DNA of 37,614 nt from Coriobacteriales bacterium (GTDB taxonomy: Bacteria > Actinomycetota > Coriobacteriia > Coriobacteriales > UBA8131): contig JAISGJ010000144.1 of NCBI GenBank assembly GCA_031263105.1, forward strand, positions 1 to 37,614. The letters run 5' to 3'. Shown piece after piece: positions 1,157 through 29,341 of the stretch. The notes beneath the pieces were generated by a model. It did not search any database and had not been told where the DNA came from. It saw only the letters and a list, made by a program, of their open reading frames with translations. Positions within the stretch are counted from its first letter, which is position 1; every line of letters starts with the position of its first letter. The position numbers and the translations under genes were made by a program.

Positions 1157-1263
1157 CGTGAACTGTAATGGTCGTCATAGAATAACTTTAGAAATACATA
1201 TATTACTAAAATTACTGTCTCCTTTATCGCATGCCAACTGCCTATCTCCAACAATTAAGTTTA

Positions 1264-1285
1264 TTATCACATCTATTCATGATAA
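1264..1285. promoter_or_regulatory. Inverted repeat in the AT-rich leader upstream of operon I
   Basis: TTATCA and TGATAA form six-base arms ten bases apart, about 90-110 bases before the start of the molybdo subunit. The surrounding stretch (about 1165-1300) is conspicuously AT-rich and should hold the operon I promoter, but no single -10/-35 pair stands out. This is a possible operator, perhaps for the divergent MarR-like protein; no more can be said. Confidence 0.3.
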
Positions 1286-1374
1286 GAGGTATTCAATGTC
1301 GAAAGCGCGACCAGCATAATGACAGCCATCGGGAAACACCACCAAAGAAGAACCAAGAAGAGAGGATGTGGCGT

Positions 1375-3960: not shown

Positions 3961-3965
3961 CTGTC

Positions 3966-4586
3966 ATGAGGATGGGATTCGTGTTCGACACAACCCGCTG
4001 CGTGGGCTGCAACGCCTGCTCGGTGGCCTGCAAGCAGGCCAACAACCTGCCGGCGACGGTCTGGTACAGCCGTGTTCTCACCGATGGCGGCGATGTGGCC
4101 GACACTCCGGCGGGGACCTTCCCCCACTTGAGCCAGCGATACTTCACCTTGGCCTGTCAGCATTGCGCCAACCCTGCCTGCACCCGTGTCTGCCCGGTCG
4201 GGGCAACGGCCAAAGACGCTGAGACCGGCATCGTGCATCAGGACACCGAACGCTGCATCGGCTGCAGGATGTGCGTGGCGGCCTGCCCCTATACGGGCGT
4301 GCGCAGCTTCAACTGGCAGGAGCCCGCCTTCGAGCTCGGCTTTGCCCTGGGCGAGGCGGACGCGCCGACGCATTACAAGCAGACCGTGGAGAAGTGCACC
4401 TTCTGCTCGGGCCGTCTCGGGCGTGGCGAGCAGCCGGCCTGCACCGTGCTCTGCCCGGCCCGGGCACGGCACTATGGCGACCTGGACGACCCCGAAAGCG
4501 AGGTCAGTCACCTGATCCGCACCAAGAGCACCACACGCCTGCTGGAGGAAATGGGCACCGACCCTTCAGTCTACTTCATCATATAG
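3966..4586 (+). CDS. Four-cluster ferredoxin electron-transfer subunit (B1, DmsB-like)
   Basis: A 206-residue DmsB/NrfC-type protein that passes electrons between the NrfD subunit and the molybdo subunit on the outer face of the membrane; it lacks its own signal and is presumably exported with A1. Cysteine groups for four [4Fe-4S] clusters are visible: CVGCNACSVAC near the N terminus, CQHCANPACTRVCPVG, CIGCRMCVAACPYTG, and a later CTFCSGRL...CTVLCPARA set. An ATG at 3966 lies ten bases after AGGAG (3951-3955) and gives the same N terminus as B2 and B3. A GTG at 3957 overlapping the A1 stop is the alternative. The next gene follows after 14 bases. Confidence 0.9.
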   Translation: MRMGFVFDTTRCVGCNACSVACKQANNLPATVWYSRVLTDGGDVADTPAGTFPHLSQRYFTLACQHCANPACTRVCPVGATAKDAETGIVHQDTERCIGCRMCVAACPYTGVRSFNWQEPAFELGFALGEADAPTHYKQTVEKCTFCSGRLGRGEQPACTVLCPARARHYGDLDDPESEVSHLIRTKSTTRLLEEMGTDPSVYFII

Positions 4587-4600
4587 GAAGGGCAGCTATC

Positions 4601-5821
4601 ATGACAAAACAGGAAGCCGTCACAGAGTCTGGGAAGGGCACTGCGCCCACGCCGAAATCGCGGGTCCAGTTGGCAGCGATTGTTGTTCTGGCGGTCATCG
4701 TCCTTGCCGGTATCGCACTCTGGGTGTATCAGGTGAGCGGCAATTACTGGCAGACCAACATGCGCGACCTTGACTCCTGGGGCCTGTACCTCATCAATTT
4801 CATGTGGTTCGTCGGCCTTTCGGCCGGTGGCCTGATCATCTCCTCGATGCCACGGGCGTTTGGGCTCAAGGGCTACGGAGACATCTCCAAGGTCGCAGTC
4901 TGGGTTTCCCTCGCGGCAATAATCGCCGCTGCCGCATTCGTCGTCGTGGACTTGGGGAGTCCCTGGCGCATATGGGAGCTCATCGTCTATGCCAACTTCA
5001 CGTCGCCTTTGTTCTGGGATGTGCTGGCCATCTCTGGCTATGCCATCGTTTCGATTGTCTATCTGGTGCTCTATCTTCGGGCCGACAAGGGAAAGGTCAA
5101 CGAGAAGGCCATGCGCGTGATAGCTGTCGTCGCTCTGGCGGTGGCGATACTCGTGCATTCCGTGACAGCCTGGATCTTCGGTCTGCTGCAGGGCCATGAG
5201 TTCTGGTACACGGCGCTTCTGGCCCCTTGGTTCGTCTCAAGCGCCCTGGTCTCAGGTCTGGCTCTGGTGCTTATCGTCGTTGCCGTGCTGAATAAGACAA
5301 GCTATCTTACGGTGACGCACGACAACTTCGTCAGACTGGTCAGGCTGTTGGGCGTCTTTACCGTCGTCGATCTCTACTTCTATGCCTGCGACATGCTTAC
5401 GGCGGGTTTTCCGGGGGCGCATAACCTCGGCCTGGCGGTCGTGCAGATGCTCACGACAGGGACATTGGCGCCGTTCTTCTGGCTGGAGATCGTCCTCTCG
5501 GCGCTCGTGATCGGCATTGCCTTTGTGCCGGCGCTGCGTCGTATGGGGGCCATCGTTTTCGCCTCATCCTGCGCGGTTCTGGCGATATTCTTCAAGCGTG
5601 TGCAATTGCTGATAGGGGGCTTTCAGCAGCCTAACATCGATCTGCCCACATCGGTCACCTCTCTGCCGTTAAGTGAGGGCGGAGAGCTTACGCAGGGCAT
5701 GAACTGGGGGCTGGTCTACTTTCCCAGCCCTCTGGAGCTCGGTGTCGTTGTCGGCGTCCTGGCCCTTTTCGGCCTGATCCTGCTGGTGGGCCTCAGGGTC
5801 ATGAAGTTGGGCGACCGCTGA
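4601..5821 (+). CDS. NrfD/PsrC-family membrane anchor and quinone-interacting subunit (C1)
   Basis: A 406-residue integral membrane protein with about ten hydrophobic segments. Family signatures include LDSWGLYLINFMWFVGLSAGG near residues 50-70, VVDLGSPWRIWELI near 120, and a TAWIFGLLQGHEFW stretch after the fifth helix. In PsrC/NrfD complexes this subunit carries no metal and binds menaquinone, passing electrons to the ferredoxin subunit. It ends operon I. Unlike C2 and C3, it is not followed by a D-E pair; only decayed fragments of related genes lie downstream. Confidence 0.9.
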   Translation: MTKQEAVTESGKGTAPTPKSRVQLAAIVVLAVIVLAGIALWVYQVSGNYWQTNMRDLDSWGLYLINFMWFVGLSAGGLIISSMPRAFGLKGYGDISKVAVWVSLAAIIAAAAFVVVDLGSPWRIWELIVYANFTSPLFWDVLAISGYAIVSIVYLVLYLRADKGKVNEKAMRVIAVVALAVAILVHSVTAWIFGLLQGHEFWYTALLAPWFVSSALVSGLALVLIVVAVLNKTSYLTVTHDNFVRLVRLLGVFTVVDLYFYACDMLTAGFPGAHNLGLAVVQMLTTGTLAPFFWLEIVLSALVIGIAFVPALRRMGAIVFASSCAVLAIFFKRVQLLIGGFQQPNIDLPTSVTSLPLSEGGELTQGMNWGLVYFPSPLELGVVVGVLALFGLILLVGLRVMKLGDR

Positions 5822-7864: not shown

Positions 7865-8308
7865 TCATACATCCTCCTCCGGCTCTGCGCCAGGCCTTCG
7901 CACCAAGGTTCTAAGCCGAGGCCAATGCAAGACCACGTGTATGATGCCGAGGGCCAGCATGGCCTTGGCGGTAAAGGCGTGAATCGGGTTCCACACCAGA
8001 TAGCCCGGGGCGTAAAGCCCGAGGGTCGCCAACACGCTGCCCGACATCAAAACGCCCGAGACCAGACATGCAGCGAGGTCGATGAAAAGAAGCACGCTCA
8101 CAAGAAAATCCCCGACCACGGTCGGCCTGCGCAAGGCCCAGGCCTGGCGAGCCAAGACGGGCAGGCGCATGGCCACATGAACGGCAAGTACCGCTGCGAA
8201 AGCGAGGCCGAGCCACTCGTGCAACACGAAGCCGGTGAGCGTTGGATTCAGGGCTGCGGCCAGTCCCGCGAAAAGGCATATGTCGAAGACAAGGATGCGC
8301 CTATCCAT
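7865..8308 (-). CDS. DUF4405-like b-type membrane protein (E subunit, operon II)
   Basis: A 147-residue protein with four hydrophobic segments. Histidines recur at helix positions: LHEW near residue 30, AVHVAM near 44, a central IHAF, and IIHVVLHW near 120. The second copy (15444-15917) keeps the same set (IHEW, IVHVAQH, PLHSLF, MVHVVVH), as expected for heme b ligands in DUF4405/cytochrome b561-like proteins. The start is the ATG at 8308 after GGAGGGAGAA; the longer upstream reading in this frame is the D gene out of frame. It overlaps the end of D by eight bases, indicating translational coupling. Heme binding is inferred, not seen. Confidence 0.75.
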   Translation of the reverse strand: MDRRILVFDICLFAGLAAALNPTLTGFVLHEWLGLAFAAVLAVHVAMRLPVLARQAWALRRPTVVGDFLVSVLLFIDLAACLVSGVLMSGSVLATLGLYAPGYLVWNPIHAFTAKAMLALGIIHVVLHWPRLRTLVRRPGAEPEEDV

Positions 8309-8672
8309 TTCTCCCTCCTCCCCGGAAAAGTGCGATGGCCCCCGCCGCCGCAACCGCAGGGACAAGGAGCCAGAGGGAAAGGGATGCATCTGAGGCGCTG
8401 CCGTAGTTGTTGCCGCGCAGCGCCTCCCAAGCATGGCATTCGATGCTGGCGCAACCTGCCTCGGGACAAGCCATCTCGTGAACCCCATCGGGTTCAGGGA
8501 CATCATCGAAGCCATGGCACGAGCCCGAGGCACATCCTGCCGCAGGGCACACGGAGCTTTCCACGATAGCTTGGGGCGCACCGACCCGACCCGACGATGC
8601 GGATACCGCACCGAAGACCACAAGCTCGCAAAGAACCAAGGAGACCAAGACCGAGGCCAAGCGCCTGGGCAT
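8301..8672 (-). CDS. Small membrane-anchored cytochrome c-like protein (D subunit, operon II)
   Basis: A 123-residue protein: signal peptide (MPRRLASVLVSLVLCELVVF), a periplasmic Cys-rich part, and a C-terminal membrane anchor (LSLWLLVPAVAAAGAIALF). The Cys-rich part has two similar units, CPAAGCASGSCH and CPEAGCASIECH. Each ends in C-x4-C-H, a spacing known for heme c attachment in some cytochromes c3, and each is preceded by a further C-P. The second copy of this gene (15922-16293) aligns throughout, including CHAW and the start of the anchor. It probably carries one or two hemes c and relays electrons between E or C and an outside partner; metal binding by the extra cysteines is the alternative. 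The ATG at 8672 follows a G-rich ribosome-binding site by about seven bases. Confidence 0.65.
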   Translation of the reverse strand: MPRRLASVLVSLVLCELVVFGAVSASSGRVGAPQAIVESSVCPAAGCASGSCHGFDDVPEPDGVHEMACPEAGCASIECHAWEALRGNNYGSASDASLSLWLLVPAVAAAGAIALFRGGGRNG

Positions 8673-8696
8673 AGCAAGACCCCCCTTTCGGACAAA

Positions 8697-8718
8697 GGCC
8701 CCGCAAGGATGCGGGGCC
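8697..8718 (-). terminator. Hairpin between nrfD-like C2 and the D gene
   Basis: A perfect nine-base stem, ggccccgca/tgcggggcc, with a four-base loop lies just after the C2 stop (8736) and before the D start. On the minus strand it is followed by TTTGTCC, a poor U tract. It is likely a partial terminator or mRNA-stabilising stem that sets the ratio of A-B-C to D-E transcript. Confidence 0.5.
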
Positions 8719-8735
8719 CCGCATGCAACCAAGGC

Positions 8736-9959
8736 CTAGTGGGACCTCTCGTTGGGCTTGAGGTCGATGAACTTGACGCCCAAGAGGAAGATGAGCACGC
8801 CCATGGCGATCATGCCCGCGAAGAGGCCCACTTCCATTACGGCGGGGGCGTACACCAGCCCGGAGTAGATGGCCGACATGGTGGTGTCGGCACCGCTGAC
8901 TCCTGTGGCAGTGTACTCGGTCACAATGCCCGCCATGCCGACGTTTGGGATCTGGAAGCCGCCAGCAATGAGCTGGAAGCGCTTGCAAAAGATGGCGACC
9001 ATGCCCAAGACGCCCGCAACTGTCATGAGGGGCACGGAACGCAGCTTGGGCACAAAGCAGACGGCGGCGGCTATGGCGCAGCAAATCGTCTGGCTCCAGA
9101 AGAAGGGCGCCAGCACACCGGAGATGAGCATGGCCACCACCTCGGCACCCTCGCCGCCGGCCCATCCGGAGGTCAGCAAGTCACAACCGAAGAAGTACAG
9201 GTCCACAATGCAGAAGGCGCCCAGCCATTTGGCCATCTTGTCCAGATTGGCCTTGTCCATATCCAAGTAGCCGACCTTGCGCAGAGCGACACAGACCACC
9301 AACACCAATGCGGTGCCGGAGACCAAGGCGGAGCACACGAACCAGGGACCCATGAGGGCCGTGTTCCACAGCTCGTGGGAAGGCTGCACGCCAATGATCC
9401 AAGCGGTGACGGTGTGTACCATGACGGCAATCACCAGGCACACGACGCTGAAGACGCGCAAAGTGCCATCTGACAGTTTGCCGACCTCGTTGCGCAGCGT
9501 GAGCGCCAGGTAGACGACGGACAGGATAAGGTAGGTGGTGATCACCAGCACGTCCCACATGAGCGGGCTCATAAGGTTGGATGAGATGAAAAGCTCCCAG
9601 ATGCGGAGCGGATTGCCCAGGTCCACGACGATAAGGCCCACCGCGCAGCAGGTGGCAGCAATGGAGGTCCAGATGGCGATCTTTGAGATGCCGCCGAAGC
9701 CCTCCATGCCGAGCACACGGGGCACGGAGCTGACAATCAAGCCGCCGGCGGAAAGACCTACGAACCACATGAAGCCCATGATGTAGAGACCCCAGTTGTC
9801 CAGGTTGCGCATGTTCGTCTGGACAAGGCCGCCGGAAAGCTGCACGACCCACAAAGCGATCGCGGCGACTGTGACCACGGCGGCCGCAACGATGCCGACG
9901 TTCAGGCCCTTCCCGCCCTGCTTGGGGGCGGTGCCAGCAGTAGAGGCATTTTCAGCCAT
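8736..9959 (-). CDS. NrfD/PsrC-family membrane subunit (C2)
   Basis: A 407-residue, approximately ten-helix membrane protein, paralogous to C1 and C3 throughout: LDNWGLYIMGFMWFVGLSAGGLI near residues 50-72, VVDLGNPLRIWELF near 120, VTAWIIGVQPSHELW near 175, and a C-terminal helix ending FLLGVKFIDLKPNE. Its role is quinone exchange for the molybdoenzyme of operon II. It starts at an ATG 15 bases after the B2 stop, with a GGAGGAG site. Its last 35 residues match the second half of the chimeric remnant at 6031-6255 closely, so that remnant derives from an operon of this subtype. Confidence 0.9.
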   Translation of the reverse strand: MAENASTAGTAPKQGGKGLNVGIVAAAVVTVAAIALWVVQLSGGLVQTNMRNLDNWGLYIMGFMWFVGLSAGGLIVSSVPRVLGMEGFGGISKIAIWTSIAATCCAVGLIVVDLGNPLRIWELFISSNLMSPLMWDVLVITTYLILSVVYLALTLRNEVGKLSDGTLRVFSVVCLVIAVMVHTVTAWIIGVQPSHELWNTALMGPWFVCSALVSGTALVLVVCVALRKVGYLDMDKANLDKMAKWLGAFCIVDLYFFGCDLLTSGWAGGEGAEVVAMLISGVLAPFFWSQTICCAIAAAVCFVPKLRSVPLMTVAGVLGMVAIFCKRFQLIAGGFQIPNVGMAGIVTEYTATGVSGADTTMSAIYSGLVYAPAVMEVGLFAGMIAMGVLIFLLGVKFIDLKPNERSH

Positions 9960-9974
9960 TGTTCTCCTCCCTCT

Positions 9975-10604
9975 TTATACCAGGTAGTACACGGACGGTT
10001 CGGTGCCCTTCTCGGGCTGGAGCTGAATCCACGCATTGTTGACAAGCAGCTGCGACACCTCGGAATCGGGATCGTTGAGGTCACCCCAATGACGCGCACG
10101 GCCAGGGCAGTCGGCAACGCAGGCCGGCTGCTCGCCACGGGCAGTGCGATGCCAGCACATGGTGCATTTCTCAACTACATGCTTCTGGTGTGCAGGGACG
10201 TCCTTGTCTCCCACAGCGAAATCCACCGAGTACTTCGGCTCTTCCCAGTTGAAGGAGCGCACACCCGTGTAGGGGCAGGCGGCGAGGCACATGCGACAAC
10301 CCAGGCATCGATCATAGTCTTGGCGGACAACGCCTGTCTCCGCATCCTTGTAGGTGGCACCAACAGGACAGGCTTTCACGCAGGCCGGATTGTCGCAATG
10401 TTGGCAGGCTACCTGGAAATAGCTCATTTTCAAACGGGGGTATTCGCCGGAAGGCGTGTCCATGTGCAGACCGCCTTCGGTCAGAATCCTGTTCCACCAA
10501 ATACCGTTGGGAAGGTTGTTCTCCACCTTGCAGCGTGTTGCGCAGAACTGGCAGCCGATGCAGTCCTTTGAAGAGAGCACAAAACCATATCGCTTCTCTG
10601 CCAT
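9975..10604 (-). CDS. Four-cluster ferredoxin subunit (B2, DmsB-like)
   Basis: A 209-residue protein with four [4Fe-4S] cysteine sets: CIGCQFCATRC, CQHCDNPACVKACPVG, CLGCRMCLAACPYTG, and CTMCWHRTARGEQPACVADC. It links A2 to C2. The ATG at 10604 overlaps the A2 stop by one base (TGATG), so translation is coupled. A longer in-frame reading upstream lies wholly inside A2 and is not used. The segment NWEEPKYSVDFAVGDKDVPAHQK is the closest match in the window to the chimeric remnant. Confidence 0.9.
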   Translation of the reverse strand: MAEKRYGFVLSSKDCIGCQFCATRCKVENNLPNGIWWNRILTEGGLHMDTPSGEYPRLKMSYFQVACQHCDNPACVKACPVGATYKDAETGVVRQDYDRCLGCRMCLAACPYTGVRSFNWEEPKYSVDFAVGDKDVPAHQKHVVEKCTMCWHRTARGEQPACVADCPGRARHWGDLNDPDSEVSQLLVNNAWIQLQPEKGTEPSVYYLV

Positions 10605-13081
10605 CACTCCTCCTCCCATTTCTCGATCTTCACGCGGATATCCGCGAAATTGGCATTGAGCAATTGAGGGTTGTACTCCAGCATGTGCAGGCCATGAAAG
10701 CGACCGCTTTTCAGGAAGAACTCCTGGAAGCCTTGGGGAAAAATCAACGTGCCGCGACGGATGGCGTCGGAGCAATGCACGCGGGCGACCGCGAAGTCGC
10801 GATCATTGGACACCTTCATGTAGCCCATGTCCTCCAAACCGTACTCCTGCGCATCAGCAGGATTGATGTCGATAAACGGATCGGAGCCATCGAACTCTCG
10901 CAGCCACTCCGCATCATAATACTGAGAATGGAGCAGGTACCGATAGCGGGTTTGCAAAAGCACGAACGGGAACTTCTCAGCCAACGCATTGTCGGGGCCC
11001 ACCTCTTTTGCTGGCTCATAGCAAGGCAGGCAGCTGGTTTCAAATTCATCTTCGGCAATAGGACTGCCCAACCAGTCGAGAGGGTTCTCGCAGTAGAACT
11101 CGAACCGCTTGGTTCCCGTACCGATGTTGCCTGCCTCGAAGCTCTGCGGGTGGAAGCCATCGGGAGTATGACGGAAGATGTGCTCCTTGCGGTACTCCTC
11201 CAGCGTCGGTGTGTCCGGATACGTGGTCAATATCTCCATCTGCTCTTCAAAGGAGGGGAACCAATCCTCGTAGCCCATGGCGCGGGCAACCATGGATCGG
11301 ATGTCTTGGTCGGGCAGCGACTCAAACTGAGGCTCGATTGCCTTTTCGCAATACATGGCGTATGGCATCGACGGAGGACCCGTATGCACGTCTTCGGTTT
11401 CAAACCAATGGCACGCAGGCAGCAGATAGTCGGCCATCTTGGTGGCGGTATCTGTCCAAGTACGGTTGACATGCACGATCATCTCGAGATGCGGGGCCAC
11501 CTCATCCCAACCGTTGGCACCCAAGAAGCTGCTGTAGGTATTGTTGGCGCACCAAAGTGTTCTCGGCGGAACAAAGGTGCGGCCACGCTTGGTGATGGTG
11601 CCCTCCCTGAGCAACTCGGGCAGCTCCATGACAGACAATGACTTGACGCCCAGGTTCTTCATCTCCGGGAACATGAACAGGGCATTGGCGTTGGACTTAT
11701 AGCCGGTATCGCCAGCGGAGATGATGTTTCCGATAGTGCCTTTCTTGCCGATCTGGCCAGTCAACGCAATAAGGGTCGCAAAGGCGTGGCCGGTGTTCGC
11801 GCCATTCCAATAGGCATTCGTGCCGTAAGAGGTGAAGGCGGCAACCGTGCCTCCGTTGACGAAGGCTTCAGCCAGCTTCACCGCGTCATCTTCAGAAATT
11901 CCGGTGAGGCCTTCGACCATGTCCGAGGTGTACTCATCGGCGCGCCTGCTCAACAGGTCAAGCGCAGTTTCCACTTGGGTGCCATTCGCCTTGTAGGTAC
12001 CATGGAGTGCGGGGGCGGTGGTTTCATTCATTCCAACGAATGTCCTGGTGGCTGTATCGTATACAACCGGATCATCGGTTGCCCCCTCAGCCTCCTCGGC
12101 CTCCCCAGCTTTCCCAGCGAGCGTGATGCCCAGATCGCTCAAGCGGAGGTACTTGCCGTTGTCTTTGCGGACAAGGACGGGGGCAACGGTGGCTTTGCCC
12201 ATCCAGTCATCATCCAACATATCGTTGTCCAGCAAATGGCGAATCATCCCCATGAAGAGCGCCGCATCCGTTGAAGGGTTGATGGGAATCCACCAATCGG
12301 CTTTTGAGGCAATGATCGTGTACTCGGGATCGATAACAATCAGCTTGGCCCCATGCTCACACGCCTTCACAATATGGGTCCAAGTGTCCCAATTGGAAAT
12401 CGTCAAGTTCGAACCGAAAATAACGATGGTGTCGGCATACTGAACCTCACCGTTTTCTGTGCACTGAGAGAACCATCCACCCGGGCCATACACGCGTTTG
12501 ATGCCAACGGAATTGCCGCTGTCGCATGCAATGTCCAAAGATGTCATGCCCAGCGCGTTTTTGAAACGACCCATGCCGTAAGCACCGGACATAAGTGAAA
12601 TGCTGCCGCTTCCTATGACGTAATTGGCTTCTTCGCCATCTTCCTCGGCGACCTGCTTCAGCTTGGCGGTTATCTCCTCCACAGCCTGCTCCCACGAGAT
12701 ACGCTCCCATTTCGTATCGTCGCCGCGATACCGGGGGTCACGTTTCATCGGATACTGGAGGCGTTTCGGCGAGTAAATGACCTGCGCGTGCGAGAGACCG
12801 CGCAGGCAGCACCTGGTGTAACGTTCCTCGGGCATCTCAGCGGGCCACGTCTGAACAACTTTTCCGTCACGCACCTTGACGTTGAGATAGCAACCGGTGT
12901 TGCAGCCATTGCGGCACGCATGCTGAAAGATCCTCTCTTCCGACTGCACGGAAGACTCCCCTGATGCCAGAGCAGCCAGCATCGTGTTGCCGACAACGAC
13001 CGCAGCACCTGCACACACTCCTGCTGTTCTCAGGAAGCTCCTTCGAGTGAGCCCTGATGGCGGCACTTTCGTCTCACCCAT
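10604..13081 (-). CDS. DMSO reductase-family molybdopterin oxidoreductase, catalytic subunit (A2)
   Basis: An 825-residue exported molybdoenzyme. Twin-arginine signal LTRRSFLRT near residue 10, then [4Fe-4S] ligands in CRNGCNTGC (C-x3-C-x3-C) and a fourth Cys in CCLRG. The Mo-ligand position aligns with Ser188 (ACDSGNSVG), as in canonical DMSO reductases and unlike A1 and A3. The MGD-binding features include IVIFGSNL, IDPEYT and the C-terminal DAQEYGLEDMGYMKVSNDRGF-like region. A segment VAPVLVRKDNGKYLRLSDLG is shared in form with A1 and A3 and marks them as one Coriobacteria-type clade (inference). The start at 13081 has GAGGAGG upstream. First gene of A2-B2-C2-D-E; divergent from a LysR regulator. 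Confidence 0.9.
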   Translation of the reverse strand: MGETKVPPSGLTRRSFLRTAGVCAGAAVVVGNTMLAALASGESSVQSEERIFQHACRNGCNTGCYLNVKVRDGKVVQTWPAEMPEERYTRCCLRGLSHAQVIYSPKRLQYPMKRDPRYRGDDTKWERISWEQAVEEITAKLKQVAEEDGEEANYVIGSGSISLMSGAYGMGRFKNALGMTSLDIACDSGNSVGIKRVYGPGGWFSQCTENGEVQYADTIVIFGSNLTISNWDTWTHIVKACEHGAKLIVIDPEYTIIASKADWWIPINPSTDAALFMGMIRHLLDNDMLDDDWMGKATVAPVLVRKDNGKYLRLSDLGITLAGKAGEAEEAEGATDDPVVYDTATRTFVGMNETTAPALHGTYKANGTQVETALDLLSRRADEYTSDMVEGLTGISEDDAVKLAEAFVNGGTVAAFTSYGTNAYWNGANTGHAFATLIALTGQIGKKGTIGNIISAGDTGYKSNANALFMFPEMKNLGVKSLSVMELPELLREGTITKRGRTFVPPRTLWCANNTYSSFLGANGWDEVAPHLEMIVHVNRTWTDTATKMADYLLPACHWFETEDVHTGPPSMPYAMYCEKAIEPQFESLPDQDIRSMVARAMGYEDWFPSFEEQMEILTTYPDTPTLEEYRKEHIFRHTPDGFHPQSFEAGNIGTGTKRFEFYCENPLDWLGSPIAEDEFETSCLPCYEPAKEVGPDNALAEKFPFVLLQTRYRYLLHSQYYDAEWLREFDGSDPFIDINPADAQEYGLEDMGYMKVSNDRDFAVARVHCSDAIRRGTLIFPQGFQEFFLKSGRFHGLHMLEYNPQLLNANFADIRVKIEKWEEE

Positions 13082-13321
13082 TTCAATTCCTCCTCTCTTT
13101 GCATTCATGCACCTTCTTGATGCATCCTCAGCCCACATTCTATGGTGCGGAAGGCGAGGGCGGAATCAAGGTAATTGCTGCCTCTCTCAAACAAGACGTT
13201 TCGATTCAAGGGAAAGAAGAGGGTCTTTTTGCAGTTGAGCGAGCTCGCAAGGCTCTCACAATCGCTTCTCGTCGAGCGACGGAAAACGCCTTCTTTGATT
13301 AACCCAAACAGGTTGTTTCCC

Positions 13322-13327
13322 TATAAT
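13322..13327 (+). promoter_or_regulatory. -10 box of the LysR gene in the A2/LysR divergent region
   Basis: TATAAT lies 116 bases before the LysR ATG. No strong -35 occurs at normal spacing (TTAACC at 17 bases is the nearest candidate). The 362-base gap between A2 and LysR must hold both promoters. On the minus strand TAGAAT, about 55 bases before A2, is a weak -10 candidate. No repeat element is inserted here. Confidence 0.4.
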
Positions 13328-13443
13328 TGGGCAGAAGGGCGAAGTGCGGGGCTGCGCAGTCGCCTACAATCATAGATGGCTGCACGGGTCAAAGGCTCTC
13401 GGTCGACCGTCGGTTTTCACCAACTGCTCGTGGGAGGTTGGAT

Positions 13444-14376
13444 ATGAATCTGGAACACTTGCGTTATTTTTTGGCATTGGAGGAACACGGTTCCATCTCA
13501 TCTGCGGCACAGCACCTCTTCATAACCAATCAGGGATTAGGCAGGGCGCTCAAGGCTATGGAGACCGAATTGGGCGCACCGCTTGTTGAACGGGATCGCA
13601 GGGGCGTCTACCTGACCCGATACGGCAAGACCTTCCTTGTCGCCGCCAAGGAAATCCTGGGAACCTACGATGAGGCCCTCCGACGCATAAACAATGGCGA
13701 CCCGGACACAAGGGATGAGAAACCCCTGTTCCTTATCACGGGCTACATTATGGAGTCGTCGACCGTTTCATTCGCCAACAACGGCATACTTCAACGCGTC
13801 TGCATTGAGGAATGCTCCATGCGGGACATCTACGAAAAGCTCCGTAAGGGCGATGGCAATGTCTTGGGATCGTGTGCACTCACGAACGATGAGTACGATT
13901 TCGTCAGCGCACGTGGTGAATTCATTTTCGAAGAGACAAGGAAATCCTGCCTCGGAATTCTCTTGAAAAAGGATGCGAGGGTGCCTAAAGAGCTCGCATT
14001 GTCCGACATGCTCGTCGAAAACGCTACCGTAGCATACACCAATCGATTCCTCGACAACGTGTACAGCACGGCTGTGCCTGGTTTCTCGTCGATGAACTTG
14101 CTTTTCAAAACAAGCAGCAGCAGAACCGTTGTCGATTGCGTACTGCGGAAAAACTGCATCGGTATTATCGATTCGTTTTCTTTTCTTACCCACTCCATGT
14201 ACATTCCCGCAACAATGGAAAAGTGCGTGTTTGTCCCGTTTGAGTACGATTCATCGAGCTTTCACGTCGGCCAACTCTATTATGCAAAGGCAGACCTTTC
14301 TCCGCAGCTGGAGAAATTGATGCAGGACACCATACGGGCCTACGACGACTTTAAGCTGCAGCAAGATATATCCTAG
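13444..14376 (+). CDS. LysR-family transcriptional regulator
   Basis: A 310-residue regulator. The N-terminal helix-turn-helix is typical: MNLEHLRYFLALEEHGSIS, SAAQHLFITNQGLGRALKAM, then ELGAPLVERDRRGVYLTRYG. The C-terminal ligand-binding domain (about 95-310) is divergent, with several cysteines (VCIEECSM, DCVLRKNC), and the ligand is unknown. GGGAGG lies seven bases before the ATG. It faces away from the A2 operon across 362 bases, the classic arrangement for a LysR protein controlling a divergent operon, here probably in response to the substrate of A2. Its stop overlaps the deoC stop by three bases. Confidence 0.85.
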   Translation: MNLEHLRYFLALEEHGSISSAAQHLFITNQGLGRALKAMETELGAPLVERDRRGVYLTRYGKTFLVAAKEILGTYDEALRRINNGDPDTRDEKPLFLITGYIMESSTVSFANNGILQRVCIEECSMRDIYEKLRKGDGNVLGSCALTNDEYDFVSARGEFIFEETRKSCLGILLKKDARVPKELALSDMLVENATVAYTNRFLDNVYSTAVPGFSSMNLLFKTSSSRTVVDCVLRKNCIGIIDSFSFLTHSMYIPATMEKCVFVPFEYDSSSFHVGQLYYAKADLSPQLEKLMQDTIRAYDDFKLQQDIS

Positions 14377-15155
14377 ACGTCGCGCACGATGGCAACGCCG
14401 TTGCTCGTGCCGATGCGGGTGGCGCCGGCCTCCACCATGCGGAGGGCATCCGTGGCCGTCCGGATGCCGCCGGAGGCCTTGACGCCCGCACGCTCCCCGA
14501 CGACTTGGCGCATGAGCCGCACGTCGGCGACGGTCGCACCTCCCCCCAGGAAGCCCGTGCTCGTCTTCACGAACGCCGCCCCGGCGTGAACTGCCGCCTC
14601 GCAGGCCGCGCGCTTCTCGGCATCGTCGAGCAGGCAGCACTCGATGATGGCCTTCACGAGGACGCCCGGGCGGGCGGGCGTGGGGGCCCCGCTCGTGACA
14701 GCCCCGCCTGCGACCACACGGGCGGGCGTGGGGGCCTCCGCCCCGCCTGCGCCCGCCTCGCCCACAGGCGCCCCGCCCACTTCCGCCCAAGCCTCTGCGG
14801 CTACCCGGACGACGGCGGCGACGTCCCGCGAGACCTCGTCCCACTCCCCCGCCTTCGCCGCGCCGAGGCTTATGACCATGTCGAGCTCGCGGGCACCGTC
14901 GAGAACGGCGCAGCGTGCCTCGGCCTCCTTCGCGCACGTGCCCATGGCCCCCAAAGGGAAGCCGATGACCGAGCACACCGCGACGGGGCCAGCACCCAGC
15001 GCATCGGCCACCAAGCGGACGAAGCGCGAGTTCACGCAGACCGAGGCGAAGCCGTGCTCAAGGGCCTCAGCGCACAGGCGCTCGACCTGCGCCGACGTGG
15101 CCTCGGCCTTGAGCAGGGTGTGGTCGATGTACGATGCAAGCGGCGGATGCGCCAT
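14373..15155 (-). CDS. deoC: Deoxyribose-phosphate aldolase with an Ala/Pro-rich insertion
   Basis: Cleaves 2-deoxyribose 5-phosphate to glyceraldehyde 3-phosphate and acetaldehyde in deoxynucleoside breakdown. Family landmarks: SYIDHTLLKAEAT (8-20), LDMVISLGA with Asp92, the Schiff-base lysine Lys197 in FVKTSTGF, and Lys226 in KASGGIRT. At 260 residues it is about 40 longer than usual. The excess is a low-complexity stretch at about 121-164 with two APTPAR units, between AVVRVAA and VLVKAIIE, where other DeoC proteins have a short loop. That loop is on the surface, so activity may survive. The ATG at 15155 is preferred over 15191 because the longer form lacks family homology. Its 3' end is duplicated at 5884-6012. 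Confidence 0.9.
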   Translation of the reverse strand: MAHPPLASYIDHTLLKAEATSAQVERLCAEALEHGFASVCVNSRFVRLVADALGAGPVAVCSVIGFPLGAMGTCAKEAEARCAVLDGARELDMVISLGAAKAGEWDEVSRDVAAVVRVAAEAWAEVGGAPVGEAGAGGAEAPTPARVVAGGAVTSGAPTPARPGVLVKAIIECCLLDDAEKRAACEAAVHAGAAFVKTSTGFLGGGATVADVRLMRQVVGERAGVKASGGIRTATDALRMVEAGATRIGTSNGVAIVRDV

Positions 15156-15274
15156 CGGTCTTGTCCTCTCTCCAAAAGGTTCCTTTATCATACCTCAGAT
15201 CTCTTGATCTTGTTTAGATATTCAGAGATGCCCCAATGCCCCAATGCCCGCCCCAGTGCCGTTACTGTGTTCAC

Positions 15275-15431
15275 ACCCCCACTGTCATTCCGAACCCCCA
15301 CTGTCATTCCGAGCCTGTCGAGGAATCTTTGGTCGCGAAGCGACCAACGGCAGGCCGGGGGGCCCTTCGACCTGCGGTCGACCGCTTGCGCGGTCGAGGA
15401 TCCCTCGGCAGGCTCGGGATGACAGTGGGGG
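15275..15431. repeat. Palindromic cloverleaf repeat, copy 2
   Basis: The outer arm CACTGTCATTCCGA is present twice in tandem on the left, 20 bases apart. The right arm is ctcgggatgacagtg, with one change. The first inner hairpin is ttggtcgc-gaa-gcgaccaa, replacing ttggacac-gca-gtgtccaa of copy 4 with paired changes on both sides. The third hairpin is tcgaccgc-ttgc-gcggtcga. The element fills the gap between deoC and the operon III E gene. Confidence 0.9.
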
Positions 15432-15443
15432 TATGTAACCTCT

Positions 15444-15917
15444 TTACTTTTTTTCGGATGAGTCGTCGCTGGCGCCCTTGCCCTGTCTCAGAGACCTGAA
15501 AAACGCCCAGAGCCATTTGGCGTGCACCACGACGTGCACCATCAACAGGGCGAGCAGCACCTTGGCGAAAAGCGAATGCAGCGGATTCCAGAAGAAGTAT
15601 CCCTGTGCCACCAGCCCAAGCGCGGGAAGGATGTGCCGCGAGATCATGATTCCCGAGACGGTGACCACCATGAGCACCACCACGGTCACGACGTCCAAGA
15701 CGAGGTTTCCGGTAGTGGCCAGCGATGGGTTGCGCCGTGTCCTCTTAAAGGCGTCGATGACCCAGTCGTAGTGCTGGGCCACATGAACGATGAGCACAAC
15801 GAGGATCCCGAGGCTTGCCCACTCGTGAATCGCCAGCCCGGTAAGAGCCGGGTTGGCAGCGACGAGGTAGACGACTGCGGCGATGACATCGACCGCGAAC
15901 GACTGCGAGAGCTTCAT
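15444..15917 (-). CDS. DUF4405-like b-type membrane protein (E subunit, operon III)
   Basis: A 157-residue protein with four hydrophobic segments and a charged C-terminal tail (GKGASDDSSEKK). Histidine positions match the operon II copy: LAIHEW near 30, LIVHVAQHYDW near 45, NPLHSLFAK near 120 and LMVHVVVHAKW near 133. It probably binds heme b and exchanges electrons with quinone or with D. It follows D with a four-base gap. Overall identity to the other E is moderate, so the two pairs diverged long ago and are not a recent duplication. Confidence 0.75.
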   Translation of the reverse strand: MKLSQSFAVDVIAAVVYLVAANPALTGLAIHEWASLGILVVLIVHVAQHYDWVIDAFKRTRRNPSLATTGNLVLDVVTVVVLMVVTVSGIMISRHILPALGLVAQGYFFWNPLHSLFAKVLLALLMVHVVVHAKWLWAFFRSLRQGKGASDDSSEKK

Positions 15918-15921
15918 GCGC

Positions 15922-16293
15922 CTACCTGATCTTCCGGACGAGGAGAACGAGTCCGACGGTGAAAAGCACCGGTGCCAGGATCCAGAGGTTCATGCTGGAG
16001 TCGCTGGGCCTGCGGTAGTGGGCGGTGAGCCTGTCCCAGGCGTGGCACGTGGCGTCCGCGCAGCCTTCGACCTTGGGGCAGAGCATCACGAAGCCGCCGT
16101 CAGGAACAGGTGCTGCTGCTGCCGCGTGACAGCCGCCGTCAGGCTGGGTGCAGCCGGCAACAGGGCAGGGAGTGTCAGGCGTGATCCGCTCGGGAAGCGA
16201 TGCGCCCTCAGGGGCCGTTGCCGTCAGCGCGGGATACACGCTGGCGGCAACGAGCACAAAGAAAAGACAGGTAACGGCGAGGCGCTTGAGCAT
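15922..16293 (-). CDS. Small membrane-anchored cytochrome c-like protein (D subunit, operon III)
   Basis: A 123-residue protein with a signal peptide (LKRLAVTCLFFVLVAASVYPALT), a Cys/His-rich periplasmic part and a C-terminal anchor (LWILAPVLFTVGLVLL). The two units are CPVAGCTQPDGGCH, with six residues between the last two cysteines, and CPKVEGCADATCHAW, a C-x4-C-H. The first unit is therefore altered relative to the operon II copy, so only one canonical-like heme site may remain. The block CHAWDRL through SDSSMNLWILAP aligns with CHAWEAL through SDASLSLWLLVP of the paralogue. No strong ribosome-binding site is seen. It lies just after the palindromic insertion that ends C3. Confidence 0.65.
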   Translation of the reverse strand: MLKRLAVTCLFFVLVAASVYPALTATAPEGASLPERITPDTPCPVAGCTQPDGGCHAAAAAPVPDGGFVMLCPKVEGCADATCHAWDRLTAHYRRPSDSSMNLWILAPVLFTVGLVLLVRKIR

Positions 16294-16322: not shown

Positions 16323-16488
16323 TAAGGAGATGACTACTAATCATTGCACGCCGTCTTCCGGCCGGTTTGCCCCGTCCCCGCCCGTGCGGACGGCGGATTC
16401 CCGGAATGTGGGCCCCCGGCCCGCCCGAACTGGGAGGGGCCAAACCGACTCGGAATCCGGCATACAAGCATTAGTCATCATCTCCTTA
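16323..16488. repeat. Second palindromic family, long copy, overlapping the C3 3' end
   Basis: A 166-base imperfect inverted repeat bounded by taaggaga and tctcctta. Left-arm blocks (ggagatgac, gcacgccgtcttccgg, cggtttgcccc, cccggaatgtggg) are matched in reverse in the right arm. The outer parts match 24553-24613. The C3 reading frame runs through nearly all of it, so the element supplies the last 36 or so residues of that protein. Unrelated to the CACTGTCATTCCGAG family. Confidence 0.8.
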
Positions 16489-17669
16489 AGCGGCAGCAGC
16501 CTGAGCCCCAGCAACAGCAACAGGACACCCAGCCCCAGCACGCCGACAACGACGCCGAACTCCAAGGGCGAGGGGACGTAGACCAAGGCCGGAGCCACCG
16601 AAGCCAGACCTGACCCCGCGTCGGTGAGCCCTGGGCCCGTGGTCACGGTGGCATAGTCGATGTTGGGGATCTGAAAGCCGCCGACGAGCAGCTGGACGCG
16701 CTTGCAGAGGATGGCCAGTATGGACAAGACCGATGCCGCGACAATCAGCGGCATGCTCCGCAGCCCGGGCACGAAGGCCACCAGGAGCGTGACGATGCCG
16801 ATAATGGCCTCGGTCCAGAAGAAGGCTGCGAGCGGGCCGGTTGTGAGCATCGCCACGATGGTTGCCCCCTCTCCTCCCGGGAACCCCGAGGTCAAGAGGT
16901 CGCAGCCGAAGAAATACAGATCGACGGCCGTGAAGATGCCCAGGAACTTGGCCATCTTTACGATGCTCTCCTGCTCCAATGCAAGATATCCCGCCTTGCG
17001 CAGCGCGATGACGATGACGAGCACCAGTGCCAGCCCGCTGACGAGTGCCGAGGACACGAACCAAGGGCCGAGCAGCGCCGTGTGCCACAGCTCGTGAGCC
17101 TGCAGAAGCCCGAAGATCCAAGCGGTCACCGTGTGCACCATGACGGCACAGACAAGGGCCAGGGCGGAAAGCACGCGCAGCGCCTTGGGCGAGCCCTTGC
17201 CGGACTCGACACGAAGCGTGGCCCACAGATAGACGATCGAGACAATCAGATAGGCGGTGAGCACGACCACGTCCCACATCAGAGGCGAGGACAGGTTGGC
17301 ATAGGCAATCAGATGCCAGATGCGCAGCGGCCCGCCCAGATCGACGACGATGAAGCCCATCGCCAAGACCGTGCAGCAGATGGACGCCCATATCGCCACT
17401 TTGGAGATGGGGCCGAAGCCCCTGGCCCCAAAGACCTTGGGGGCAGACGAGATGATCAGCCCTCCGGCGGACAGTCCCACAAACCACATGAAGTTGATGA
17501 TGTACAGCCCCCAGCTGTCAAGGTTGCGCATGTTGGTGTTGACGAAGCCGGCCGTGGACTGGAAGACCCAAAGGGCGATGCCCGCTATGGCTACGACGAC
17601 AGCGATGACGATCGCCGCAAGCTGGGCCTTGGAACGGGAGGGGCTTGCGTTTGAAGTGTTGTCACTCAT
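16341..17669 (-). CDS. NrfD/PsrC-family membrane subunit (C3) with repeat-encoded C-terminal tail
   Basis: A 442-residue, approximately ten-helix protein homologous to C1 and C2: LDSWGLYIINFMWFVGLSAGG near 50-70, VVDLGGPLRIWHLI near 120, VTAWIFGLLQAHELW near 175. The family part ends at LRLLPLKE, near residue 403. The remaining residues (MMTNACMPDSESVW and on to RPEDGVQ) are hydrophilic, have no counterpart in C1 or C2, and are encoded by the palindromic element at 16323-16488. The original stop was evidently lost. The ATG has GGAGGAG nearby and follows the B3 stop by 14 bases. Base composition is clearly richer in G+C than in the B3 and A3 genes upstream. Confidence 0.88.
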   Translation of the reverse strand: MSDNTSNASPSRSKAQLAAIVIAVVVAIAGIALWVFQSTAGFVNTNMRNLDSWGLYIINFMWFVGLSAGGLIISSAPKVFGARGFGPISKVAIWASICCTVLAMGFIVVDLGGPLRIWHLIAYANLSSPLMWDVVVLTAYLIVSIVYLWATLRVESGKGSPKALRVLSALALVCAVMVHTVTAWIFGLLQAHELWHTALLGPWFVSSALVSGLALVLVIVIALRKAGYLALEQESIVKMAKFLGIFTAVDLYFFGCDLLTSGFPGGEGATIVAMLTTGPLAAFFWTEAIIGIVTLLVAFVPGLRSMPLIVAASVLSILAILCKRVQLLVGGFQIPNIDYATVTTGPGLTDAGSGLASVAPALVYVPSPLEFGVVVGVLGLGVLLLLLGLRLLPLKEMMTNACMPDSESVWPLPVRAGRGPTFRESAVRTGGDGANRPEDGVQ

Positions 17670-17683
17670 GCTATTCTCCTCCC

Positions 17684-18310
17684 CTATACCAGATAGTAGA
17701 CGGACGGATTGGTGCCTTCTTCAGGCTTAATCTGCTTATACGCTCTCGATGCAATGAGTTTCGCTACCTCAGAAGTGGGATCGTTCAAATCACCGAAGTG
17801 GCGGGCTATTGCCAAACAACCCACAACGCACGCAGGTTCTTCGCTACGAGCAAGACGGTGGGTACAAAACGTACACTTCTCCGCCGTATGTTTCTGATGT
17901 GCCGAAACGTTTGCGTCTCCAACTGCAAAATCGAGATAGTACTTCGGCTCCTCCCAGTTGAAGCTCCTGACTCCGGTGTAGGGACATGCAGCTATGCACA
18001 TCCTGCAGCCGATGCACTTGTCATAATCCTGATGGACAACGCCAGTCTCCTCGTCTTTATAGGTAGCCCCAACTGGACAAACCTTGGTGCAGGCAGGGTT
18101 CTCACAGTGCTGACAGTTAATCGGCAAATATGATAGAAACAGGTTTGGCCATGATCCGCCTGGCGAATCCATATTTTGACCGCCCACTGTGTGTATGCGA
18201 CACCACCAGTTATCATTTGGCAGATTGTTTTCCATCTTGCACGCCATTGAGCAGGTATGGCAGCCAACACAACGCTTTGTATCAATGACCATGCCGTATC
18301 TCTTGAACAT
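17684..18310 (-). CDS. Four-cluster ferredoxin subunit (B3, DmsB-like)
   Basis: A 208-residue electron-transfer subunit with four [4Fe-4S] cysteine sets: CVGCHTCSMAC, CQHCENPACTKVCPVG, CIGCRMCIAACPYTG, and CTFCTHRLARSEEPACVVGC. It connects A3 to C3. The ATG lies two bases after the A3 stop, with AGAGGG upstream. Composition is lower in G+C than in C3, D and E, and resembles A3, suggesting that A3-B3 arrived together. Confidence 0.9.
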   Translation of the reverse strand: MFKRYGMVIDTKRCVGCHTCSMACKMENNLPNDNWWCRIHTVGGQNMDSPGGSWPNLFLSYLPINCQHCENPACTKVCPVGATYKDEETGVVHQDYDKCIGCRMCIAACPYTGVRSFNWEEPKYYLDFAVGDANVSAHQKHTAEKCTFCTHRLARSEEPACVVGCLAIARHFGDLNDPTSEVAKLIASRAYKQIKPEEGTNPSVYYLV

Positions 18311-18312
18311 AA

Positions 18313-20775
18313 TTAACCCTCTTTCCCATCCCAGACAACAACTTCCGCTCTGTTGTCCATAAACGATGCGTTAACGCCTGCAGGATCAAAGTCCCATGTC
18401 AATAGCTGACTCCAGCCACCCGCCTTGTGCTCGAAGCTGTTCCAACCTTTTGGATAGACCGCTATACCCTGCCTGATGCCTTCAGAATAATTTGCCTTAG
18501 CAACCGCAAAGCCTCGATCGTTGTAGACTTTTACATAGTCGCCATCCTGAATGCCTCGTACTGTGGCGTCCGACGGATTGAGTTTAATGATCGGTTCAGG
18601 TGATATCTCCAAGGTCCATGGCTGAAGAAACCCATTGCAATGCCAGCGCGTACGTAGTCGTTCGGACTGAAGAACAAGAGGGTACTTCTCTGCAAGCGGT
18701 GAGTTTCTGCCTACTTCGGCTGGTTCAAAATAATGCGGAAGACGCTCGCGCTCCATATCAATATCTTGGCCGTAGTCGATGCGCGGAGTAGGCTGATCAA
18801 CGTAAAACTCCATCCTCTTGGTAGACGTGCCGAACTCGCCATTCTCTGCTGCTATATAGGGAGTAGTCCCATAGAGTATCTGTTTTTCTTTCTTCAGCCG
18901 ATCATAGGTGATATTCAGTGTCTGGGCCAGAGGGGACTCATCAATATGCTGCCTAAAGAACTCTTCCATAGTTATTTCGAAATGTTCTCCTACACCCATA
19001 CCCTTTGCGATGAGCTTGACGATTTCGGCATCCGATTTCGCTTCGTAGAGAGGCTCAACTGCCTTTTCCATGATGTCCATTCCTGGATAGCTTGTTAGAC
19101 TCACGACATCATCAACTTCATAACAATGCGTAACAGGTAATACGAGGTCCGCATAACGGGCTGTCTCGGTCATCTGTATTTCGACAACCGAGATAAATTC
19201 AATTTTGTCAAAGACTTCGGTTTTCAGCTTGTTTGTGTCGGGAAGTCCCGTAAACGGGTTTGCAAAAGTGACGTGGAGTGATTTGATGGGGAACGGCTTT
19301 CCTGCATAGGTTCCCGTTTCGAGGATATTGGGCAGCTCAAGTACCGGTACTGTGGTTTTAAAGGTCATGGACGGGAATTGAACGGCAAAGTTTCCTGGGA
19401 ATACGAATGCCGGTGGTGTGGTGTTGGCTCCATGCTTCGCCGCATTACCCGTTAAAGCTGCGAGACATATCTGCGCATGTCCTTGATGGACGCCATTTAC
19501 ATGTGCTTGGGGCCCATACTGGGTGTAGTTCCAAATTGGCCCATTTGCTGCAATCTCACCTAATTCGATAATATCTTCGGGTTTGAGCCCGGAAATCTCA
19601 GCAGCTTTCTCAGGAGGATACGTATTGACTTCATCAACAAGGTGGTCGAATGCGGTTCGGCATTTAAGGCCACCGGCTGTGAAAGTGCCGCTCAGGGCAG
19701 GGTTGACAGATTCTCCAAGAGCCATCGGGCTTTCAGTCGCCTTGTCCCAAACTGCGGGCGGATCAAGAACCTCTGGCTTACCGGTAGTCGCACTTATCGG
19801 ACCCTCGATTGGCGGTATTCCACAATCGCTCATTCGCAGATAACAGCCCTTTTGTGGATGTATGAGCACTGGAGCAACAGTATGTGTGAGTAAAAATTCT
19901 TCGTCGTGTAGATTATTGTTAACAATGTAATTCATCATGCCCATGAGTATTGCCACATCTGTTCCAGGATAGGGTGCGTACCAAATGTCGCATTTTGCCA
20001 CTGTGCTATTAAAGTTTGGATTAACACAGATGAGCTTTACGCCCTGCTCAATGGCATCGGCAACGTATCTCCAATTCGGGAAGTCTGCGTCGGCAACATT
20101 GGCACCCCAGACGATGATTGCCTTGGAGTTGACAATATCGGCCGTCTCACTGCTTACGTATGAACTCCCGCCAACAGTTCTCTGGAAGGCGTAAATAAGT
20201 GCCATATCTGTACAGTATTCAGCGTCAGTCATTTGAAGAACATTGGCCAAGCGCGGCATCATTCCCAACAGCCCGTTATACGTGGTTGCGTTCCCTGAAC
20301 CGTGGTACCAGCAAAGCGCCGTGTTTCCATACTCCTCCGCATAAGACTTCCACTTCTCGACGAGCAGTGAGATCGCTTCATCCCAACTGATACGCTCCCA
20401 CTCACCGGCGCCACGCTCTGAGCCATCCCTGCGCTTCATGGGATATTTAATCCTTTCGGGACTGTATAGCCGCTGCATCTGCGCTCGTCCACGAAGACAC
20501 ATGCGTGCACCATGCAAATCACCACCCTCCAACGGACGAGCCATTACCACATGCCCATCTCGAACTACAACTTCATATTGACATTGGACACAAGTCCACC
20601 CGCACTTCTGCCGTACAACTTTTTCCTCGACGTCAGTCATTTTTTTATTGTCACTGCCTGTGCAGCCGAGCGCACTCCCCAAAGCCGCTGTCCCAGCTAT
20701 TGCAGCGGTTGTTTTCAGGAAGCTTCTTCGAGTTAAACCCGGTGATTTCTCCACGTTCTCCACTAATCCTGACAT
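18313..20775 (-). CDS. DMSO reductase-family molybdopterin oxidoreductase, catalytic subunit (A3)
   Basis: An 820-residue exported molybdoenzyme. Twin-arginine signal LTRRSFLKT near residue 15, ending in SALGC, so it may also be a lipoprotein. The [4Fe-4S] motif is CGWTCVQC (C-x3-C-x2-C) plus a Cys in MCLRG. The Mo-ligand position aligns with Asp190 (EYCTDMAL), as in NarG-like enzymes and A1. GPISATTGKPEVLDP is shared with A1. The C-terminal domain has ATVRGIQDGDYVKVYNDRGFA. The ATG at 20775 sits behind GGAGGAG; one at 20790 is possible. First gene of A3-B3-C3-D-E. More AT-rich than its downstream partners. The substrate is unknown. Confidence 0.9.
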   Translation of the reverse strand: MSGLVENVEKSPGLTRRSFLKTTAAIAGTAALGSALGCTGSDNKKMTDVEEKVVRQKCGWTCVQCQYEVVVRDGHVVMARPLEGGDLHGARMCLRGRAQMQRLYSPERIKYPMKRRDGSERGAGEWERISWDEAISLLVEKWKSYAEEYGNTALCWYHGSGNATTYNGLLGMMPRLANVLQMTDAEYCTDMALIYAFQRTVGGSSYVSSETADIVNSKAIIVWGANVADADFPNWRYVADAIEQGVKLICVNPNFNSTVAKCDIWYAPYPGTDVAILMGMMNYIVNNNLHDEEFLLTHTVAPVLIHPQKGCYLRMSDCGIPPIEGPISATTGKPEVLDPPAVWDKATESPMALGESVNPALSGTFTAGGLKCRTAFDHLVDEVNTYPPEKAAEISGLKPEDIIELGEIAANGPIWNYTQYGPQAHVNGVHQGHAQICLAALTGNAAKHGANTTPPAFVFPGNFAVQFPSMTFKTTVPVLELPNILETGTYAGKPFPIKSLHVTFANPFTGLPDTNKLKTEVFDKIEFISVVEIQMTETARYADLVLPVTHCYEVDDVVSLTSYPGMDIMEKAVEPLYEAKSDAEIVKLIAKGMGVGEHFEITMEEFFRQHIDESPLAQTLNITYDRLKKEKQILYGTTPYIAAENGEFGTSTKRMEFYVDQPTPRIDYGQDIDMERERLPHYFEPAEVGRNSPLAEKYPLVLQSERLRTRWHCNGFLQPWTLEISPEPIIKLNPSDATVRGIQDGDYVKVYNDRGFAVAKANYSEGIRQGIAVYPKGWNSFEHKAGGWSQLLTWDFDPAGVNASFMDNRAEVVVWDGKEG

Positions 20776-20890
20776 TGCTCCTCCATTCATTCTCCAATCC
20801 AGAATGATGCGCTGAAACCCTCAATATCTGCCATGACAATGATGGCTCGGGGTTTTCGAGGGTTTCAAATTAGTCAGAATCGGCCGATTC

Positions 20891-29112: not shown

Positions 29113-29341
29113 AAACACTACCTTTCTTTCGCAGGCCCGGCCGGTATGACCTGACGCCTGCCCCCTAGCTGATGGAATGCGCATCCGCGCATCGTGCCCG
29201 GATGCCTGTCGTTCCTCCTTGTGCCCTAAAAAAGCAACAGGGTCCCAAGCGACCCGAAAGCCGCCAAGAACCCGTCCGGGTAAGGATAGTCGATTTGCCG
29301 ACGCTTTGCAACATCAAATTTGCACAAAATTGCGCCCTCTG

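Follow-up and report, generated by a model that had tools for sequence, protein, structure and literature searches.

Two molybdoenzyme operons end in a conserved pair of membrane protein genes

What do two small membrane proteins contribute when their genes close a molybdoenzyme operon? The question is raised by a stretch of 37,614 nucleotides from a Coriobacteriales bacterium (GenBank assembly GCA_031263105.1, contig JAISGJ010000144.1), the whole of which is referred to here as the window. Two of its operons, II and III, lie on the minus strand with the gene order A-B-C-D-E, in which A is the molybdopterin catalytic subunit, B a ferredoxin-like subunit, C an NrfD-type membrane subunit, D a protein with cysteine/histidine (Cys/His) units and E a DUF4405 protein. 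We propose that D and E serve one class of NrfD-anchored molybdoenzyme complexes as an accessory module for electron transfer, with heme b on E and likely heme c on D, and that with B and C they form a membrane module that docks varied A subunits; we give this reading a probability of about 0.55.

An original prediction made from the sequence alone had placed a D-E pair behind the NrfD gene of each operon, and this proved correct. D (8301-8672) and E (7865-8308) of operon II follow the NrfD gene at 8736-9959, D (15922-16293) and E (15444-15917) of operon III follow that at 16341-17669, and all four are open minus-strand genes. The D and E genes overlap by 8 bases in operon II and are separated by 4 bases in operon III, and the two D genes are 7.6 kb apart. 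The D proteins share 38% identity, including all six Cys and both histidines of the CH pairs, and the E proteins share 35%, including H30, H44, H110 and H124. The prediction had spoken of two D-E copies; both are in the window, but across the source genome (2.9 Mb, 86% complete) there are five copies of D and four of E, each E directly behind a D. The fifth D (G000:C104; L007:559-1500) lies downstream of an NrfD gene without an E, its C-terminal helix is cut off and a phage-repressor-like reading frame comes after it, so a mobile element has likely inserted here.

E is probably a heme-b cytochrome

The E proteins of operons II and III match DUF4405 (PF14358, cut-off 26.7 bits) with 47.8 and 41.1 bits (2e-12 and 2.6e-10), and one copy also matches the cytochrome b561 family Ni_hydr_CYTB at 1.1e-6, just below the cut-off. 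The structure model of E consists of four long helices (mean predicted local distance difference test, pLDDT, 83.5), and the four histidines named above are invariant in 21 of 21 aligned sequences, in agreement with the four helices and common histidine pattern that had been predicted for both proteins. Because E belongs to DUF4405 and a purified member of this family binds heme b (PMC11334425), its predicted assignment as a heme-b protein is supported.

D carries two invariant Cys/His units

In the D of operon II, translation, alignment and model indicate two predicted transmembrane helices around an outside loop with two C-P-x3-C-x4-C-H units. The AlphaFold model places helices at both termini (residues 2-26 and 95-122), and D may thus be a two-helix membrane protein with an outside loop of about 65 residues. 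The C-terminal anchor of the original prediction corresponds to the second helix, but the supposed signal peptide was modelled as the first, which perhaps spans the membrane. Two CP..GC..CH units had also been expected in each D; the Cys and His residues are indeed common to both copies, but translation and alignment of the operon III protein gave C-x4-C-x6-C-H for unit 1 and C-x5-C-x4-C-H-A-W for unit 2.

D was searched for in 400 Coriobacteriia genomes, with E <= 1e-17 as the threshold for a strong copy. In all 64 distinct D proteins, two units with six Cys and two His between them are retained, mostly as C-P-x3-C-x4-C-H; the consensus is C-P-x3/4-C-x4/6-C-H ... C-P-x3/4-C-x4-C-H, usually followed by A/G-W. 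The Cx4CH spacing occurs in 120 of 128 units (unit 2 in 64/64 proteins, unit 1 in 56/64), and the canonical CXXCH is absent from these proteins, in which only Cx4CH or Cx6CH was found. The pattern CPx3Cx4CH occurred 154 times and its reverse not once in 2.14 million translated residues from loci chosen for D or E, which is far more often than chance would give, in a sample that tests the shape of the motif rather than its genome-wide rarity. No relative of D was found in Pfam, NCBIfam or PDB, profile searches of PDB sequences included, and D is an unnamed protein family.

Heme c is the best guess for the cofactor of D

Adjacent Cys and His are typical of heme c, and exported iron-sulfur (FeS) proteins are usually folded first and then sent by the twin-arginine translocation (Tat) route. 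Heme c bound through Cx4CH is our best guess for D because of its C-H pairs, the prevalence of Cx4CH among its units, the presence of cytochrome c maturation (Ccm) genes in D-bearing genomes, the fact that D shows no visible Tat motif, and a CLSSACH (Cx4CH) site in a multiheme cytochrome encoded near the outlying D-E pair L055 described below. Ccm genes were found in 46 of the 48 genomes with D. The source genome is among them, contrary to the absence that the original prediction had named as fatal to its proposal; contig G000:C58 (L015) carries a CcmE-like gene along with two of the Cytochrom_C_asm family, one CcmF-like and one CcmC-like. A search for ResB (System II) in the source genome gave no match, so a System I-type Ccm is the maturation system present. 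The CcmE-like gene of L015 encodes CPSKY in place of the histidine motif.

The two D-bearing genomes without a Ccm match are G379 (77% complete) and G181 (98% complete). The D-E contig of G181 (L196, G181:C1, 11.9 kb) is 92-96% identical to another genus over two long stretches, and its tetranucleotide use is closer to that genus (0.967) than to the other contigs of G181 (0.91-0.92). Because of this identity and composition, the contig is probably mis-binned.

Several results weigh against the proposed module and its hemes. Nothing in Pfam, NCBIfam or PDB links D to any cytochrome c. Unit 1 has the Cx6CH spacing in 8 of the 64 D proteins, and we know of no heme c bound with this spacing. The third conserved Cys of each unit is not needed for heme c. 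The loop of D was modelled at a pLDDT of about 50, which leaves the ligand geometry unreadable; such a loop would be consistent with organization by a cofactor but proves nothing. Ccm is present in 183 of 352 genomes without D, so its co-occurrence with D is weak evidence, and G181 is nearly complete. For E, Foldseek of the model against PDB found no match at E <= 0.001, a comparison that is little informative for a four-helix bundle, and a profile search against PDB sequences found nothing.

Some of these observations would fit a D that is not a cytochrome c, in which each unit would bind an FeS cluster or another metal through three Cys and one His, and D-E would combine heme b with a new metal relay. 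None of the three Cys nor the His varies, and they behave as a single unit of 12 residues found alone or in duplicate; heme c accounts for only two of the three Cys, and Cx6C is tolerated in unit 1. However, a visible Tat motif would usually be expected on an exported FeS protein and D has none, Ccm is found in nearly all genomes with D, and the C-H adjacency is that of heme c. We therefore regard a metal site as unlikely, and heme c remains our preferred assignment.

D-E follows one type of NrfD gene and accompanies diverse catalytic subunits

The search of the 400 genomes yielded 87 strong D copies in 48 genomes (in one genome, a partial D only). These come almost entirely from two families within a single order, with one outlier at class level. 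Among 297 genomes drawn across the phylum, matches outside Coriobacteriia were at chance level. In a search of a named collection, the matches listed came from Eggerthellaceae and uncultured bins only, with the genera Adlercreutzia, Gordonibacter, Paraeggerthella, Rubneribacter, Enteroscipio, Parvibacter and Enterorhabdus. When the coordinates of the class-wide D and E searches were compared by eye, E stood directly downstream (within 300 bases) of 85 of 87 D genes, the exceptions being the damaged C104 copy and a contig end.

The operon structure was counted in the 53 fetched loci with D. An NrfD gene lies upstream of 52, in line with the tight linkage that had been anticipated for Coriobacteriia, and A and B are each present in 49, several of the gaps being contig ends. 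Median pairwise identities in 43 complete operons were 36% for A, 68% for B, 69% for C, 61% for D and 47% for E. Because B, C and D are far more alike than A, one module seems to serve many enzymes, and by these identities B-C-D-E looks like one common membrane electron module carrying many different molybdoenzymes. Tandem A-B-C-D-E operons are frequent (L056-L063) in several genera, with D genes 10-13 kb apart; G071 has two such operons in tandem.

The window operons are of this build. In operon II, the putative Tat-exported catalytic subunit (A, 10604-13138; Pfam Molybdopterin 1.2e-32, Molydop_binding and a weak TAT_signal match) is followed by a DsrO/ArrB-like ferredoxin-like subunit (B, 9975-10604, with a start chosen inside the open reading frame 9975-10775; Fer4_11 7.4e-22, NCBIfam DsrO 1.1e-53, below cut-off) and a DsrP-like NrfD subunit (C, coordinates above; NrfD 3.8e-39, NCBIfam DsrP 1.9e-38, below cut-off). 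Operon III, likewise on the minus strand, has a putative Tat-exported A (18313-20790; Molybdopterin 4.5e-39), a B with 16 Cys in four cluster motifs as counted by eye (17684-18310; Fer4_11 3.8e-20) and a C of the NrfD type (NrfD 3e-43). By Pfam and gene order, a molybdenum subunit, a four-cluster ferredoxin subunit and an NrfD anchor thus stand in one operon, as in complex iron-sulfur molybdoenzymes.

In the NrfD tree, D-E accompanies 52 members of one clade and is missing from 3, with 3 more that the data do not settle, and in the sister clade 1 member has D-E, 10 do not and 1 is not settled. Some branches are long, and the D-E label needs at least four changes on this tree, so losses or transfers of D-E occur. 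The NrfD of operon II groups with sequences of the Eggerthellaceae type, with a support of 88/91 that is not decisive, and the D of this operon shows the unit-1 spacing of Eggerthellaceae, whereas operon III is of the type found in the family to which the window itself belongs; on these grounds, one of the two window copies may stem from transfer. A simple recent duplication was rejected, given the 38% identity of the D proteins and the placement in the NrfD tree. The original prediction had read an old association out of the divergence of the pairs; they do align and are well diverged, but their age does not follow from this, since one copy may be transferred.

Operon I of the window (1231-5821, plus strand) consists of A, B and NrfD without D-E, and its NrfD stands at the base of the D-E clade. 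Its A is 53-62% identical to Eggerthellaceae A subunits whose operons do carry D-E; these belong to a subset with a radical SAM gene (CFNPNQ motif) between NrfD and D (L053, L054, L058 and L059, e.g. L059:3263-4651, minus strand) and a NarJ/TorD-like chaperone gene (PF02613) after E. Elsewhere, the window encodes a fumarate-reductase-like flavin adenine dinucleotide (FAD) protein with an RR leader (27505-29184) and an ApbE flavin transferase (33068-34087).

The chaperone and radical SAM genes bear on a structural or assembly role, in which D would make disulfides and help to place or mature the complex with no electron transfer. The six conserved Cys in the outside loop and the chaperone genes, in some operons with the radical SAM gene, adjoining D-E would suit this role, but two invariant CH histidines and a constant partner from a heme-b-binding family point to redox function, which makes it very improbable.

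D-E also occurs without molybdoenzymes

A restriction of D-E to molybdoenzyme operons was rejected, and in this respect the original prediction needs amending. In deep-branching Coriobacteriia, found via E, one or two D-like units adjoin DUF4405 (L203, L205, L209, L211, L218), or D-like units and DUF4405 share a single reading frame (L210 and L212, with DUF4405 scores of 32.9 bits, over the cut-off, and 25.7 bits, just under it). These one- and two-unit versions and fusions stand without molybdoenzymes, and the fusions indicate a functional tie of D to E independent of any molybdoenzyme. The class-level outlier (L055:6146-12578, G023) has D-E beside NuoL/Mrp-like and NuoH-like subunit genes; further upstream lie the multiheme cytochrome gene and one for a Tat FAD reductase. 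This locus possibly encodes an ion-pumping complex that uses the D-E module. At L200:8168-8665 and L204:7695-8129, in some deep Coriobacteriia, the gene after DUF4405 encodes another kind of small membrane protein that lacks Cys units and in L204 has no Pfam match.

Because the deep-branching pairs and fusions and the L055 pair stand without molybdoenzymes, D-E is most simply seen as a portable module of older origin, later taken up by A-B-C operons. The same loci would suit a separate outlet or inlet, through which electrons from quinol or NrfD branch to outside acceptors or other reductases and not to A, and a link between DUF4405 proteins of other phyla and extracytosolic flavin electron transfer has been described (PMC11334425). 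In Eggerthellaceae, however, D-E keeps to a single NrfD clade and is conserved along with B and C, as for a subunit, and we consider a separate path improbable. Tentatively, and with some doubt, C-P-x3-C-x4-C-H might be a new extracytoplasmic cofactor unit, which would hold either a heme c that has the third Cys for an axial ligand or a cluster bound by three Cys and one His. It would serve DUF4405 heme-b proteins as their dedicated partner on the outside, originally in one- or two-unit partners or fusions and later as the two-unit protein of a five-subunit molybdoenzyme complex of gut Eggerthellaceae, with heme b and NrfD as two quinone-linked membrane subunits.

A possible electron route and its closest known counterpart

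As described in PMC8076601, NrfD subunits contact quinones, have no redox cofactors and may move ions, di-heme b subunits carry electrons across the membrane, and DsrMKJOP comprises an NrfD-like DsrP, DsrO with four [4Fe-4S] clusters, an outside heme-c DsrJ and a di-heme-b DsrM. An NrfD and a heme-b subunit in one operon, as in DsrMKJOP, suggest two quinone-linked membrane subunits feeding one outside acceptor. In the physical A-B-C-D-E complex that we infer, E would be a four-helix cytochrome with heme b held between its conserved histidines inside the membrane, and D, anchored by helices at both ends, would expose two units in its outside loop, each most likely with one redox cofactor, presumably heme c. 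These two, B with its four FeS clusters and C on the quinone side would form a membrane module that docks many different A. Electrons from menaquinol would most likely enter at E (heme b), at C or at both, and pass from E to D on the outside face and on to B and A, in parallel with a route from C through B to A, so that the enzyme would have two routes from the quinone. Alternatively, electrons might flow in the opposite direction, or E and C might cycle quinone as proposed for Dsr.

DsrMKJOP appears to be the closest known architecture by analogy, with a very similar division of labour. Among the NCBIfam models, DsrP and DsrO are the best or nearly the best matches of C and B in the window, at 132.8-140.3 and 182.1-185.1 bits, below the curated cut-offs of 350 and 200 bits. 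Unlike Dsr, these operons have a molybdenum catalytic subunit, D is not DsrJ-like and E is a DUF4405 protein. No DsrK was recognised among the operon genes, though no search was aimed at it. D and E matched no Dsr model in the NCBIfam scan, whose content of DsrJ and DsrM models is unchecked; with the same proviso, DsrJ was rejected as an identity for D.

PsrABC, DmsABC, ArrABC and TtrABC share the Tat-exported molybdenum subunit, the four-cluster FeS subunit and NrfD, and the available part of PMC8076601 describes no DUF4405 heme-b or Cys/His-unit protein with them. The catechol dehydroxylases Dadh, Cadh and Hcdh of Eggerthella lenta, from the same bacterial family, likewise have a Tat-exported molybdenum subunit, a 4Fe-4S subunit and a membrane anchor, but only these three components appear in the portion available (PMC7028382), and the accessible text on E. 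lenta dehydroxylases describes no D-E addition (PMC7028382, PMC11574389). The DUF4405 cytochromes of flavinylation clusters resemble E in PF14358 membership, four conserved histidines and, in the purified member, heme b, but they are described as having six helices and lying beside ApbE and flavinylated partners (PMC11334425), whereas E is a four-helix protein whose partner carries CPx3Cx4CH. A-B-C thus belongs to the complex iron-sulfur molybdoenzyme family, and D-E is an addition absent from its members as far as the available accounts describe them. The claim that no described system has this set held for the open-licence literature in its accessible part, with the possibility of an earlier description elsewhere, but must be set beside the similar division of labour in DsrMKJOP.

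Implications for gut Eggerthellaceae

Much drug, polyphenol and catechol chemistry of gut Eggerthellaceae is due to molybdoenzymes, whose membrane electron supply is poorly described beyond A, B and the anchor. That a conserved B-C-D-E accompanies A subunits so unlike one another suggests an electron source that these enzymes share and that can be tested. If D binds heme via CPx3Cx4CH, this would add a cofactor motif overlooked by standard scans for CXXCH, and DUF4405 cytochromes would gain a new kind of outside partner.

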